NCBI RefSeq assembly: GCF_036077095.1
Contig: NZ_CP107960.1
Coordinates: 6,014,001 to 6,078,000, forward strand
DNA: 64,000 nucleotides
Origin: Streptomyces sp. NBC_00376
GTDB lineage: Bacteria > Actinomycetota > Actinomycetes > Streptomycetales > Streptomycetaceae
Direction of reading: 5' to 3'
Shown here piece after piece: positions 11,771-51,821 of the stretch. Numbering within the stretch: the first letter of the stretch is position 1; every line of letters starts with the position of its first letter. The translations under genes and the position numbers were made by a program. The notes below the pieces were generated by a model. The model had not been told where the DNA came from. It saw only the letters and a list, made by a program, of their open reading frames with translations, and made no database searches.

Positions 11771-11845
11771 GGGTGCGTAGCTCAGGGGTAGAGCGCTGCT
11801 CTTACAAAGCAGATGTCGGCGGTTCGAAACCGTCCGCGCCCACCA
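11771..11845 (+). tRNA. tRNA-Val (anticodon UAC), intact, at attL
   Basis: The 75-base cloverleaf includes an encoded CCA. Acceptor arms GGGTGCG and CGCGCCC pair with one G-T wobble. The anticodon stem CTGCT/AGCAG encloses loop CTTACAA with anticodon TAC. The T-arm contains GGTTCGAAACC. The 3' part from 11800 is shared with attR, so after integration the 3' part of the functional gene is contributed by the phage. The phage also supplies the terminator at 11856. Confidence 0.95.
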
Positions 11846-45741: not shown

Positions 45742-46926
45742 ATGCACGCTCTTCCGCATGACCACACCGGCGCACGCATCAAGCGCCTCCGATTGGAACG
45801 CCACCTCACCCAGAGGGCGCTCTCCGATCTGTCCCAAGTCCCGTACTCCACGCTCACGAAGACCGAGCAGGGCATCCTCCCCGCGTCACCGCACCTGATC
45901 GCAAATGTGGCCCGCGCCATGCGGGTCGAGGTCGCCACGGTGACCGGTCAGCCGTACGTCACCGAGCTGCGCGCCGATGAACTCGACGTGCTGATCGCCC
46001 CGATCCGTGAGGCCCTGGACGTCTTCGACCTCGGCGCCGACCCGGACATTGCCCCTCGCCCACATGCCCTGATCGTCGCCGATGCCGAGGAACACCTTGT
46101 CGCGGTCCGGGCTGGGGAGATCAAACGGGTGGCTGGGGAGCTGCCGGGCCTCATCCTGGAAGCCACCACCGCGGCGCACGCGTCCGGGGGCCGAGGCTCG
46201 TGGCAAACCCTGGCGTCGACGTACCGCACTGCCTACGACGTCACCAGCAAGCTGGGCTATGGCGACCTCGCCTCAATCGCTCTCGCCCGGATGGACTGGG
46301 CGGCGCAGCGGGCATCCGACGCGGTGGTCAGCGCGATGGGCCGCTACATGCGTGGCCTCACCTACCTGCGGGCTGGCCAGTACCGCACTGGAGACCGACT
46401 CGTCCGCGTCGGGCTGGCTGCGCTGGAGCAGGCCGACGCGGGCCGGGAGCGGGATGTTCTCACCGGGCAACTCCACCTCGGCGCCGCAGTGATGGCCGGT
46501 CGGGCACACAACGGCGACGCCGCAGCCGGTCACCTGTCGGAAGCAGACCGAATTGCTACGGCAACTGGTGACGCGTCGGAAGTGCACTGGCTCAGCTTCG
46601 GCCCGACGAACGTTGCCGTACACCGTGTGTCCGTGTTGGCCGAGCTGGACGAGTACGGTCAAGCCGCTCAAGTCGGCCGGAAGGTCAGCCTTCCGAAGGA
46701 CTGGCCGGCCAGCCGCCGGAGTCATCACTACGCCGAGCTGGCTCGCGCACAGATGTGGGACGGTTCCTTGGACGACGCGTTCAAGAACCTGTTGCGCGCG
46801 CGGAAGGCAGCGCCTCAGCAGGCCCGGTATCACCAGACGGTGCGGGAGACCTACGCAGGGCTGGAGGCAGCGAAGCGTCAGCTGCCCGATTCCTTCCTGT
46901 CCTACGGCTCTTGGCTGGGAGTCTGA
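45742..46926 (+). CDS. XRE-HTH regulator with C-terminal TPR-like domain
   Basis: 394 residues. The N-terminal XRE domain (GARIKRLRLERHLTQRALSD, LSQVPYSTLTKTEQGILPAS) is followed by ~290 residues of helical repeats: YMRGLTYLRAGQYRTGDRLV, LTGQLHLGAAVMAGRAHNGD, AELARAQMWDGSLDDAFKNL. This is the layout of RRNPP-type peptide-responsive regulators, though large families of Streptomyces HTH-TPR proteins have unknown ligands. Isolated by a terminator and its own palindromic operator, so transcribed separately from the late genes. Confidence 0.82.
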   Translation: MHALPHDHTGARIKRLRLERHLTQRALSDLSQVPYSTLTKTEQGILPASPHLIANVARAMRVEVATVTGQPYVTELRADELDVLIAPIREALDVFDLGADPDIAPRPHALIVADAEEHLVAVRAGEIKRVAGELPGLILEATTAAHASGGRGSWQTLASTYRTAYDVTSKLGYGDLASIALARMDWAAQRASDAVVSAMGRYMRGLTYLRAGQYRTGDRLVRVGLAALEQADAGRERDVLTGQLHLGAAVMAGRAHNGDAAAGHLSEADRIATATGDASEVHWLSFGPTNVAVHRVSVLAELDEYGQAAQVGRKVSLPKDWPASRRSHHYAELARAQMWDGSLDDAFKNLLRARKAAPQQARYHQTVRETYAGLEAAKRQLPDSFLSYGSWLGV

Positions 46927-48523: not shown

Positions 48524-48760
48524 TTATCCCCCAAGCAGGTCTGCCAGCTTGGTTTCCAGGGCGCGGGCGACCCGCAGCAAGTCGCTTAGCCGGGGGTTGT
48601 TGGTGGCGTGCTCGATGCGCTGGACGGTGTCGCGGGAGATACCAGCGCGCTCCGCCAGTGCTTCTTGCGTGAGATTGCACCACATCCGCCGCTCCCGTAT
48701 CCGGTCGCCGAGGCGTCGGCGCTCGTCGAGGAGCCAGGGCGGATGATCATGGTGCGGCAC
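48524..48760 (-). CDS. Short XRE-family HTH regulator
   Basis: 78 residues, essentially one XRE domain: LGDRIRERRMWCNLTQEALA, ERAGISRDTVQRIEHATNNP, LSDLLRVARALETKLADLLG. Leftward, like the regulator upstream of it. Candidate second repressor or modulator of the accessory arm. Confidence 0.8.
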   Translation of the reverse strand: MPHHDHPPWLLDERRRLGDRIRERRMWCNLTQEALAERAGISRDTVQRIEHATNNPRLSDLLRVARALETKLADLLGG

Positions 48761-48872: not shown

Positions 48873-49823
48873 CTACGGCAGATCACGATCGCGGGACGTC
48901 GCCCACCACGCCATCACCTGATACAGCGTCCGCATCCCCAGCACCGACCGCAGCGCGGACAGCTCCGCAGTCACCGTGCGCTCACCGAGCCCAAGCCGCT
49001 TCGCCGCCTGCTGCTTGGTGTACCCGGTCTCCAGCTCGACCAGGATCTGTCGCTGCCGACCGGTCGTCACTGTGCCCGCGCCCGACCCCGCGTCGTTCCA
49101 GCGGGCGGCCCGATCCCAGAGCGCGGCAAAGACGTGCTCGGCCCAGGCGACACACCCGCGGTCAGTGACGTGCCAGCCCGCGTCAGTGTCGGCCCCGGCG
49201 ATGATGTGGTTCTCCACGAAGAGGTGCCGCCCGTCCACGATCATCATGCGCGGAAAGGTGCCGCTGAGCGTCCGCACCTGGGCCCCGGCATCGACGATCT
49301 GACGGACGTAGGCCGCAGTCTGACCGTGGCTCACTGCGGCGCTGGTGTAGAGGCTGTGCACCTCGGCCCCGGCCTCCAGCGTGTCCACGACGCGCTGCGC
49401 GCCGAGGGCGACGATGCGCGGGTCGCGGTCGGCCGGCGCCCCGGGCTGGGTGGTGAGCACGGACGTGGCCGCGGTGGCCGAGACGTCGCCAATGCGTCCG
49501 TTCATCGCGTCCCGTGTCGCCAGGTATTCGCTGGCGGGGCCGCCGTACATCCGGTGCGGGTCGTACTCCGCCGCCAGCGATTCCAGGGTGGGGATCCTGT
49601 GTATGTGGGTGACGAGGTCGCGGAGCTCTGTAAGTGCGGCGCCCATGAGGCTGTGCGTGATGGCGCGAGGGTCGTGCGCCACCCACGATCCGTCGTGCGG
49701 GCGGTGCTCGACCAGGCCCAGCGCGGCAAGGCGCTCGGTGGCGAGACACGGTTCAGGGCGCTCGCCGGCGGCTATCGCCTGGTATGCGGACACCTCGGCG
49801 GTACTCAGAGATTTACTCAACAT
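48873..49823 (-). CDS. TrmB/LuxR-type regulator divergent from secreted peptide gene
   Basis: 316 residues from ATG 49823 (GGGGG 8 bases upstream; longer start at 49838 possible). Three parts: an N-terminal winged helix (LSTAEVSAYQAIAAGERPEP, LATERLAALGLVEHRP); a central PLD-like/TrmB-sensor domain (VVDTLEAGAEVHSLYTSAAV, AQVRTLSGTFPRMMIVDGRH, LFVENHIIA); and a C-terminal LuxR-like HTH (GYTKQQAAKRLGLGERTVTA, ELSALRSVLGMRTLYQVMAW). The PLD-like part lacks HxK catalytic motifs, pointing to ligand sensing. It reads away from the peptide gene, sharing a 157-bp control region. Confidence 0.82.
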   Translation of the reverse strand: MLSKSLSTAEVSAYQAIAAGERPEPCLATERLAALGLVEHRPHDGSWVAHDPRAITHSLMGAALTELRDLVTHIHRIPTLESLAAEYDPHRMYGGPASEYLATRDAMNGRIGDVSATAATSVLTTQPGAPADRDPRIVALGAQRVVDTLEAGAEVHSLYTSAAVSHGQTAAYVRQIVDAGAQVRTLSGTFPRMMIVDGRHLFVENHIIAGADTDAGWHVTDRGCVAWAEHVFAALWDRAARWNDAGSGAGTVTTGRQRQILVELETGYTKQQAAKRLGLGERTVTAELSALRSVLGMRTLYQVMAWWATSRDRDLP

Positions 49824-49980
49824 CCGTACAACCCCCATGAGTTCGTGTTGCCGCTTCACGCATATGCCGATTCTGGCACGTCTCATCCCTTGGTTCACTT
49901 GTCAATCACGTGTAACCATTCCCTCACTGCATGTTATTCGGGCATATGTTCGAGTCACAGCCAAGTGAAGGGCACCCCCC

Positions 49981-50190
49981 ATGAGAATCCGCGTCCTGGC
50001 CGCATCTGCTGTCCTCGCGGCAGCACTGGCCACAACCACCATCCCCGCCATCGCCAACGAGCCCAGCTCTACCCCGGTCCCCGCCGCCACCGCCGACGAT
50101 CTCGGCTGGGGTGTCATCGGTCCCGGCAGCTCCCCGTCACCCACGCCCACACCCACGGATCTACCGACCGGGGATCTCGGCTGGGGCTGA
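49981..50190 (+). CDS. Secreted 69-residue peptide precursor with two DLGWG motifs
   Basis: Start ATG 49981 with GAAGGG 8 bases upstream. A Sec signal peptide (MRIRVLAASAVLAAALATTT, likely cut near AIA-NEP) is followed by a Pro/Ser/Thr-rich linker and two copies of DLGWG: ADDLGWGVIGPGS in the middle and TGDLGWG at the extreme C-terminus. The repeated C-terminal motif is what a processed signal or bioactive peptide would look like. Divergent from the TrmB/LuxR regulator. Function inferred; no characterised homologue comes to mind. Confidence 0.75.
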   Translation: MRIRVLAASAVLAAALATTTIPAIANEPSSTPVPAATADDLGWGVIGPGSSPSPTPTPTDLPTGDLGWG

Positions 50191-50231
50191 TCGCCAGCTG
50201 CACGGCACACCAACGGGGAGATGAGCAAAGA

Positions 50232-50453
50232 ATGTGCGTCCACGTACACCTCGCCACTGCCGGCCTTCCGGGCGGCGTACTCACCTGGGTAGATCGGACG
50301 GCCGTGCACACGCGGGTGTACGCAGACGCTGAGCTGGCCCGCGACGGTCAATTGACTGCCGCGGGCTGGGCCGCTGTCGACGGCGCACTCGCGGAGGTCG
50401 GCGGCGAGCGCCTGGCTACCGCCGGCCCCTGCCCGCTCCGGCTCGCAAGCTGA
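50232..50453 (+). CDS. Small hypothetical protein downstream of peptide gene
   Basis: 73 residues from ATG 50232. CVHVHLATAGLPGGVLTWVD ... VYADAELARDGQLTAAGWAA, VDGALAEVGGERLATAG. Alpha/beta, no signal peptide, no recognised motif. It begins 42 bases after the peptide stop and ends 8 bases before the integrase, so likely in the same transcript. GGGGAG lies 12-13 bases upstream, slightly far. Confidence 0.6.
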   Translation: MCVHVHLATAGLPGGVLTWVDRTAVHTRVYADAELARDGQLTAAGWAAVDGALAEVGGERLATAGPCPLRLAS

Positions 50454-50460
50454 GGCGGCC

Positions 50461-51699
50461 ATGGCGTACGCGGAGAAGGTCTACAAGGTCAAGAACGGCG
50501 TCAAGACCAAGCAGTTCACCTGGCGGGTCCGATACAGGCGGCCGGACGGGGCATGGGGCAGTGAGCCCGGGTTCCCCACCAAGCGGTTGGCCGAGGAATT
50601 TGGCGGGCAGCAGGAGGCCGCCATCCGTGCCGGCCGCTGGGCTGATCCGGCGTTGGCGCAAACCCTGTTTGGTACGTGGGCCCGGGAGTGGATGGCGGCC
50701 AAGTCGCCGCGCGGCCGTACAGTGACGACGCGGTGGGCCCGCCTGGAAGCGCACATCCTGCCGCGGTGGGAGTCCACGCCGATCCGGCAAGTCACCTGGT
50801 TCGACGCCGAGCAGTGGGCCAACGGCCTGGACTGCGACGACATTACGGCGACGCACTGCCTGACGCTCATGTCCCAGATCCTCACGGGCGCGGTCGACAA
50901 GGGCATGATCCTGGCGAACCCGCTCTTCGGCCGCCGCCGGTCTCGGACTGCCGCGGCGAAGGTGGAGCAGTCCGAACGGGAGGATGCCAAGCTCTGGGCG
51001 CCGCCCGAGGTGGTGCTTCAGGTGGCCCGGCGTGCTGGGCCGCTCGACGGCATGCACATCCTCACGGTGGCCTTCACGGGGCTCCGCTGGGGTGAAAGCC
51101 TGGCTCTCCGCCCGTCGTCGCTGAGCGCACGTGTCGAGTCCGGCTACACCTGCCCCACTCTCGTGGTCGCGGAGGAGGTGGCCGAGTACGCCAAGCGCGG
51201 GCCGGCGGGGGAGAAGTTGGGCATGGTGCTGGACCTGGAGCCAGTGAAGACGCGCGAGTCAAAGCGGCAGATCGACCTGCCGCCGTTCCTCGCCGAGCTG
51301 CTCGCGGCTCACGCAGCCAGCAGGAAGGGCGAGTTCCTGTTCACGCCGCGTGGAGGCGGCCATTGGCGGCGTGGCAACTTCGGCCGGCAGGTGATGCGGC
51401 CCTGCGCGGACGGACGGAAGGCCGTGACGAAGGTGCGCGGGCGGGCGGCGCAGCCCGCAGTCGAGCCCATCATGAAAGGGCTGACGATGCGGGCGCTCAG
51501 GCACACGCACGACACATATCAAGAGCAGATCGGCGTGAAGCCTGCGCTCGCCTTCGAGCAAGCCGGGCACCGGCGGCCGGGCATCAAAGCGGTGTATCAG
51601 CACCCGACTCCGGACATGCGGCGTGAGAGACTGGACGGGCTTCAGGAGATCTGCGAGAGCGCGATGCGCTCGCTCGGGTGGACGACGGTGTGGGAGTAG
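50461..51699 (+). CDS. int: Tyrosine integrase
   Basis: 412 residues. An N-terminal arm-binding region (KVKNGVKTKQFTWRVRYRRP) and SAM-like core-binding domain (LFGTWAREWMAAKSPRGRTV) precede the catalytic domain. Catalytic residues: Arg209 (AFTGLRWGE), Arg347-His348 (MRALRHTHDT), His370 (EQAGHRRPG), nucleophile Tyr379 (KAVYQH). The usual first His of HxxR is Arg344. Located 75 bp from attR and reading towards it, consistent with integration at tRNA-Val. Confidence 0.95.
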   Translation: MAYAEKVYKVKNGVKTKQFTWRVRYRRPDGAWGSEPGFPTKRLAEEFGGQQEAAIRAGRWADPALAQTLFGTWAREWMAAKSPRGRTVTTRWARLEAHILPRWESTPIRQVTWFDAEQWANGLDCDDITATHCLTLMSQILTGAVDKGMILANPLFGRRRSRTAAAKVEQSEREDAKLWAPPEVVLQVARRAGPLDGMHILTVAFTGLRWGESLALRPSSLSARVESGYTCPTLVVAEEVAEYAKRGPAGEKLGMVLDLEPVKTRESKRQIDLPPFLAELLAAHAASRKGEFLFTPRGGGHWRRGNFGRQVMRPCADGRKAVTKVRGRAAQPAVEPIMKGLTMRALRHTHDTYQEQIGVKPALAFEQAGHRRPGIKAVYQHPTPDMRRERLDGLQEICESAMRSLGWTTVWE

Positions 51700-51774: not shown

Positions 51775-51821
51775 TCTTACAAAGCAGATGTCGGCGGTTC
51801 GAAACCGTCCGCGCCCACCAG
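51775..51821. other. attR core (47 bp)
   Basis: Identical to 11800-11846. Only the 3' part of the tRNA is present; the upstream sequence is unrelated, so this is not a second functional tRNA. Confidence 0.93.

Follow-up and report, generated by a model that had tools for sequence, protein, structure and literature searches.

Adjacent genes for a signal-peptide-like precursor carrying a short D-x-x-W word and for a regulator of TrmB-LuxR type were found in a Streptomyces prophage, and the same pairing, with varying words, recurs in phages and in chromosomes of the genus. The cassette is probably a peptide-signalling device, in which an exported DxxW oligopeptide is sensed by a cytosolic TrmB-LuxR receptor that feeds back on the peptide promoter and the integrase, in a logic resembling that of arbitrium. 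The recurrence of the pair with changing words suggests an undescribed chemical language of Streptomyces and their viruses.

The cassette lies in a prophage of about 40 kb within the window, the term used here for the whole 64-kb stretch of DNA analysed. The prophage looks intact, with family matches to terminase, portal, major head and tape-measure proteins. It is bounded by an exact 24-bp repeat of tRNA-Val sequence, and its ends share a 55-bp stretch that is 95% alike. The features of the prophage ends and the cassette genes are as follows.

11822-11845, (+) strand: left attachment repeat, at the 3' end of tRNA-Val(tac).
48524-48760, (-) strand: Cro/CI-type (XRE) HTH protein of 78 aa, downstream of the regulator (HTH_3, 1.8e-14; matches to phage regulator PHROGs).
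48873-49823, (-) strand: regulator, 316 aa from the ATG at 49823.
49981-50190, (+) strand: exported precursor peptide (predicted), 69 aa, with DLGWG twice, the second copy C-terminal.
50232-50453, (+) strand: 73-aa protein, starting 41 bp past the peptide gene and ending 7 bp ahead of the integrase gene.
50461-51699, (+) strand: integrase (PHROG integrase, 1.7e-33).
51797-51820, (+) strand: right attachment repeat, an exact 24-bp copy of the repeat at 11822-11845.

The order in the region 48873-50453 is thus the regulator on the minus strand, then the divergent peptide ORF and the 73-aa ORF on the plus strand, leading to the integrase in the same direction. No terminator-like site was found between 49981 and 50461, and the integrase gene is possibly co-transcribed with the peptide gene. 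The 73-aa protein had no match in Pfam, NCBIfam or PHROG. Further to the left within the prophage, an XRE-type HTH protein of 391 aa is encoded at 45751-46926. The preliminary description, of a 69-residue precursor with a Sec signal, a linker and two DLGWG motifs, one of them C-terminal, which lies head-to-head with the regulator across a 157-bp gap and beside the integrase of a temperate phage, agrees with these coordinates and with the integrase, attachment repeats and phage structural families found, export being judged by a crude rule.

The 69-aa peptide has an Arg-bearing start, a hydrophobic core, a cleavage-like site (AIA/N) and a linker rich in Pro, Ser and Thr. Here and throughout, export of small ORFs was judged by eye together with a crude hydropathy rule rather than with SignalP, and the ORFs are described as signal-peptide-like. 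Among the 60 signal-peptide-like ORFs of 40-139 aa in all frames of the window, only the peptide ORF ends in [DE]xxW(G). When the peptide was used as the tblastn query, no match was found in phages and the protein database returned only the peptide itself. Relatives were therefore found via the regulator, and loci were selected by regulator homology only, not by the peptide.

The structural model of the regulator supports a winged-helix/TrmB-like N-terminal part, a PLD-fold sensor and a C-terminal LuxR/GerE HTH. The AlphaFold2 model (pLDDT 89.6, pTM 0.54) gave fold matches to TrmBL2, TrmB, NucT (PLD fold) and GerE. The predicted protein therefore combines the winged-helix part and PLD-like sensor fold typical of the TrmB family with the C-terminal GerE HTH typical of the LuxR/GerE family, the GerE match scoring 23.3 bits, slightly below the cut-off of 23.5. 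The phospholipase D catalytic motif HxKxxxxD was present in 0/36 regulators, and the early view of a three-domain protein, with a winged helix, a PLD/TrmB-like sensor without HxK and a LuxR-like HTH, is upheld by the model and its fold matches. The modelled fold is like that of the archaeal regulators TrmB and TrmBL2, but no TrmB Pfam model matched the regulator at E<=1. No TPR family was detected in Pfam or NCBIfam at the same threshold, and DUF7436 matched the relative of the regulator in the host chromosome (L010) with 24.5 bits, below its 34.2-bit cut-off.

A tblastn search of phage records with the regulator identified a single phage, Chymera (two records), in which the regulator is 42% identical. 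Chymera is an isolated phage, and its gp30, a protein of 59 aa that is encoded divergently to the regulator and annotated as hypothetical, carries DPGWG twice, once after the signal peptide and once at the C-terminus. Further loci were obtained from IMG/VR, from GTDB contigs and from profile matches in 392 Streptomyces genomes (14 at E<=1e-85), and 19 distinct mobile-type loci were left after duplicates had been merged (the window, L017, L018, L037, L038, L070, L072, L073, L075, L076, L081, L082, L084, L085 and L087-L091). A small signal-peptide-like ORF ending in DxxW(G) was found in all 19, the final G being present in 17 and absent in L087 and L090. The C-terminal words were DLGWG, DFGWG, DPGWG, DIGWG, DVGWG, DSDWG, DPNWG and DTTW, with two or three identical copies in 14 loci and a single copy in five (L038, L072, L076, L082 and L089). 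Over 351 kb surrounding the 19 and three further loci, this C-terminal criterion returned one ORF per mobile-type locus (19/19) and one in L106, which holds the L033 regulator; it returned none in L105 or L107, nor in 44 kb of control loci.

Relatives are also widespread in Streptomyces chromosomes. Profile A1, with five candidates scored per genome, matched 384 of the 392 Streptomyces genomes at E<=1e-30, a count that includes homologues without a peptide check. We read 110 chromosomal loci, a non-random draw made up of 30 returned by the profile search and 80 hand-picked before the peptides were seen, and a divergent signal-peptide-like ORF with [DE]xxW was present in every one. The 110 precursors are all distinct and contain 1-12 copies of [DE]xxW; two or more words were found in 107, and in 98 of these every copy is identical. 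There are 18 leading words, of which EPSW, DIGW, DSGW, EPTW, DTGW, DVGW and DPGW are the commonest, and some further chromosomal loci have a single C-terminal word, for example DTVWD or DSKWD. The co-occurrence of peptide and regulator in other genomes, which had been named at the outset as a point on which the proposal would stand or fall, is therefore seen at 19/19 mobile-type and 110/110 chromosomal loci read; conservation of DLGWG was found for the motif, which is kept as a variable DxxW word, and not for DLGWG as a fixed sequence.

Since the reading of the 110 loci took the candidate ORF with the most words, a rule that favours the hypothesis, an any-ORF rule was applied equally to upstream, downstream and background sequence. 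An ORF with at least two identical words was found within 750 bp upstream at 104/110 loci, at 0/30 downstream (the 30 of the 110 loci with at least 600 bp of downstream sequence) and in 1/319 background tiles. Short motifs are frequent in six-frame translations of GC-rich DNA, and a signal-like ORF with a single [DE]xxW was indeed seen in 9/319 background tiles. However, these upstream, downstream and background counts, and the one C-terminal ORF per mobile-type locus against none in the control loci, make it extremely improbable that the motif and the pairing are products of chance.

Within a precursor the words are nearly uniform, with a word-pair identity of 0.973 compared with 0.100 (largest 0.136) when words were permuted among precursors. 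Codon differences between copies were synonymous in 665 cases and nonsynonymous in 26 (809 copy pairs, which are non-independent). The letters of the peptide are thus selectively constrained, and recent duplication alone does not account for the copies. Between precursors the words vary, and a FastTree tree of 129 receptors requires 38 or more changes of word; the word was the same in 45 of 46 receptor pairs that are more than 95% identical and in 74 of 1579 pairs at 70-75%. When receptor columns were compared with the words, leaving out columns with more than 20% gaps, the column after QPG was S in 29/29 receptors paired with E words and G in 66/68 paired with D words (97 of the 110 had a readable QPG[GS], and the association amounts to two or three independent pairs).

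The genome that hosts the prophage has a chromosomal pair of its own (L010), in which a divergent precursor of 130 aa contains DIGW eight times. It lies between dnaK-grpE-dnaJ-hspR and clpB, and an hspR homologue was found in the flank of 21/30 chromosomal loci. This context bears on the possibility that the precursor is a secreted effector, either an antimicrobial or a multi-core modified peptide, whose expression the regulator controls without sensing it. Repeated short cores within one precursor are a feature of some modified peptides, and the gene directly after the L010 precursor (L010:2936-3256) encodes a protein of 106 aa that weakly resembles the N-terminal region of Rieske oxygenases; by eye, its histidine ligands are missing and similar proteins lie 3' of the precursor in L221, L223, L224 and L227. 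We nevertheless consider an effector unlikely. No modification enzyme is annotated near the Chymera pair, and the families around the host chromosomal pair are DnaK, GrpE, DnaJ, HspR, PNPOx, ClpB, a transporter and an aminotransferase. The conserved part is also only about four letters long, and because the word has changed so many times while the copies within a precursor stayed alike, a recognised signal fits better than a toxin.

The pair extends beyond Streptomyces to another actinobacterial family. Among 246 sampled members of the class, 15 genomes from outside the genus matched at E<=1e-60. Ten loci from these (L211-L220), all from one family code, were read, and in 10/10 a short signal-peptide-like ORF is convergent to the regulator. 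The words were DTSWG, DSSWG, DTAWE and DTGW, with DxxW in nine loci and ATSWG in L217, and the nearest named proteins of L212 were from Nocardioides. The word often lies directly after the signal-peptide cleavage site in this set. A shared promoter alone would hardly account for two genes that stay together even when convergent, and this persistence counts against the effector explanation as well. Peptide signalling remains our preferred reading of the cassette, and it may extend to a D-x-x-W peptide code shared by Actinobacteria and their phages and read by TrmB-LuxR receptors, with distinct words in many Streptomyces lineages, in which the DxGWG words of temperate actinophages set lysogeny by local prophage density. 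This broader proposal is tentative, and on balance we lean slightly against it.

Not every homologue of the regulator is accompanied by a peptide. In the first relatives search, which gave 21 regulator places at E<=1e-15 in 61 genomes, no such peptide was found at five (L021, L024, L029, L032 and L034), L027 had a single internal word, and in L033 the peptide was downstream on the same strand. The weaker homologues of the regulator in the host genome (L011-L016) had no peptide in 6/6 cases. Peptides are thus a property of only part of what is a large family of regulators.

The intergenic regions of the mobile-type loci share a motif, and two regulatory features are predicted from it and from the sequence that follows.

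49860-49881, (+) strand: predicted operator, GCATATGCCGATTCTGGCACGT, the shared motif of mobile-type intergenic regions.
49890-49919, (+) strand: predicted peptide promoter, TTGGTT-17 bp-TAACCAT, fitting the pattern TTGG-17-yAACnnT.

The motif is 22 bp long, approximately GCAYRTGC-NN-ATTYY-GCAC, and had an information content of 16.0 bits in the 19 intergenic regions compared with 11.0-11.4 bits in eight letter-shuffled sets, a comparison with a small bias, as each shuffled set was given four starts and the real set 12. By eye, it was found in 13/19 regions and was not clear in the other six (L017, L075, L085, L087, L088 and L090). With a matrix derived from 12 loci other than the window, the site at 49860-49881 scored 22.5 bits, and the next best site in the 64 kb scored 12.7. 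The pattern TTGG-17-yAACnnT, which was defined after the intergenic regions had been inspected, follows the operator-like motif in 7/19 regions, compared with a mean of 0.2 and a largest value of 3 in shuffles; a standard sigma-70 scan found no promoter. The operator-like site lies directly upstream of the predicted -35, a position that is usual for an activator and may indicate one.

The preliminary description had singled out other elements in the 157-bp gap, namely TTCACTTG at 49894, its complement CAAGTGAA at 49962 and GCATATG at 49860 and 49942. All are present. The first is an unlikely operator because the closest relative, L037, carries TTCACTCA instead; most relatives lack both members of the complementary pair, and CAAGTGAA overlaps the likely ribosome-binding region. 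The GCATATG at 49860 is part of the site common to the relatives, while the copy at 49942 is not.

In the mechanism we propose, Sec would export the precursor, and extracellular cutting would free a short peptide that contains the D-x-x-W word. In this prophage the product is probably DLGWG, its C-terminus free. An oligopeptide importer would bring the peptide back into the cell, where it would bind the PLD-fold sensor of the adjacent TrmB-LuxR regulator and alter the action of the regulator at the predicted operator (49860-49881), which immediately precedes the -35 of the predicted peptide promoter. Transcription from this promoter would, in this prophage, run through the peptide gene and the 73-aa gene towards the integrase gene, so that a rise in peptide would influence both further peptide synthesis and the supply of integrase. 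This feedback would constitute a density-dependent input to lysogeny.

A reading that overlaps with this one retains peptide signalling and takes the phage copy as a passenger whose target is host behaviour rather than the lysis-lysogeny decision. It is a distinct possibility, though on the whole we find it rather doubtful. The large number of chromosomal relatives noted above is in its favour, as are the integrase of Chymera, which is convergent to the peptide gene, and three mobile-type loci (L081, L082 and L084) that adjoin gyrA, so that not all mobile-type loci are evidently phages. Against it, the peptide gene runs straight into the integrase in the window and in L038 and L076, the operator matrix has its one strong match within the 64 kb ahead of this run, and a Cro/CI-type homologue of the protein at 48524-48760 was found near the cassette in 12/19 mobile-type loci. 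A search with five integrase queries found a similar gene within 2 kb in 8/19 loci and at about 3 kb in L087 and L090. The same-direction run of peptide, 73-aa protein and integrase is found in three loci, the window, L038 and L095 (the same as L076), the last two having a homologue of the 73-aa protein at the same position. With an integrase near eight of the 19, the gene run in three and gyrA beside three, a tie to lysogeny does not hold for the cassette in general. Chymera-type phages encode a small protein, which probably has one or two membrane helices, 3' of the peptide gene (L017:5267-5533 and L018:2854-3054), in the slot occupied by the 73-aa protein in the window.

Signalling by an exported peptide and a cytosolic receptor is an established logic, but no component of the cassette was found in a known peptide-signalling family. 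Arbitrium, the AimR-AimP system of Bacillus phages in the RRNPP group, is similar in that a phage-borne short Sec-type propeptide is encoded beside a transcription regulator, the likely signal is the C-terminal five or six residues, the word varies among phages and the genes are near the integrase in several phages. In arbitrium, a small RNA, AimX, is under the control of the receptor. The cassette differs in the receptor, modelled here as TrmB/PLD with a LuxR HTH, in the signal word DxxW(G) and in its Actinomycetota hosts. Of the features of the RRNPP group, an exported propeptide adjoining the receptor gene was seen at 19/19 mobile-type and 110/110 chromosomal loci (by the crude export rule) and a TPR receptor was not, with no TPR family at E<=1 and TrmB, PLD and GerE folds in the model; the initial characterisation as arbitrium-like logic with unrelated proteins is consistent with this. 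Rap-Phr and other chromosomal RRNPP pairs likewise combine an exported propeptide with an adjacent receptor and include many diverged pairs, but there is no TPR match here and the chromosomal precursors hold up to 12 word copies. The gamma-butyrolactone signals, also of Streptomyces, are enzyme-made small molecules, whereas the peptide is gene-encoded.

To our knowledge, the receptor for peptide signals in Streptomyces is an open question, and no arbitrium-like system has been described in actinophages. The accessible part of a 2026 review (PMC13220807) names only gamma-butyrolactones for Streptomyces signalling, and the available text of PMC10075063 describes Actinomycetota signals as typically enzyme-made small molecules. 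A literature search, with coverage that leaves out preprints and most subscription journals, returned no description of the peptide/TrmB-LuxR pair and no arbitrium-like system in actinophages within the texts available to it. If the peptides are signals, they would represent a class of peptide quorum sensing whose receptor fold is distinct from the TPR fold of the RRNPP group, and the regulator would be a candidate receptor for Streptomyces peptide signals.

In eight Streptomyces (L221-L228), two to five related TrmB-LuxR receptors are in tandem near a chromosomal peptide, with one peptide gene seen in each array, single-word peptides having been sought upstream of one receptor only. Within the host genome of the prophage, the chromosomal word DIGW (L010:2547-2939) and the prophage word DLGW (49981-50190) are one residue apart, and the question of cross-talk between the two pairs therefore arises.
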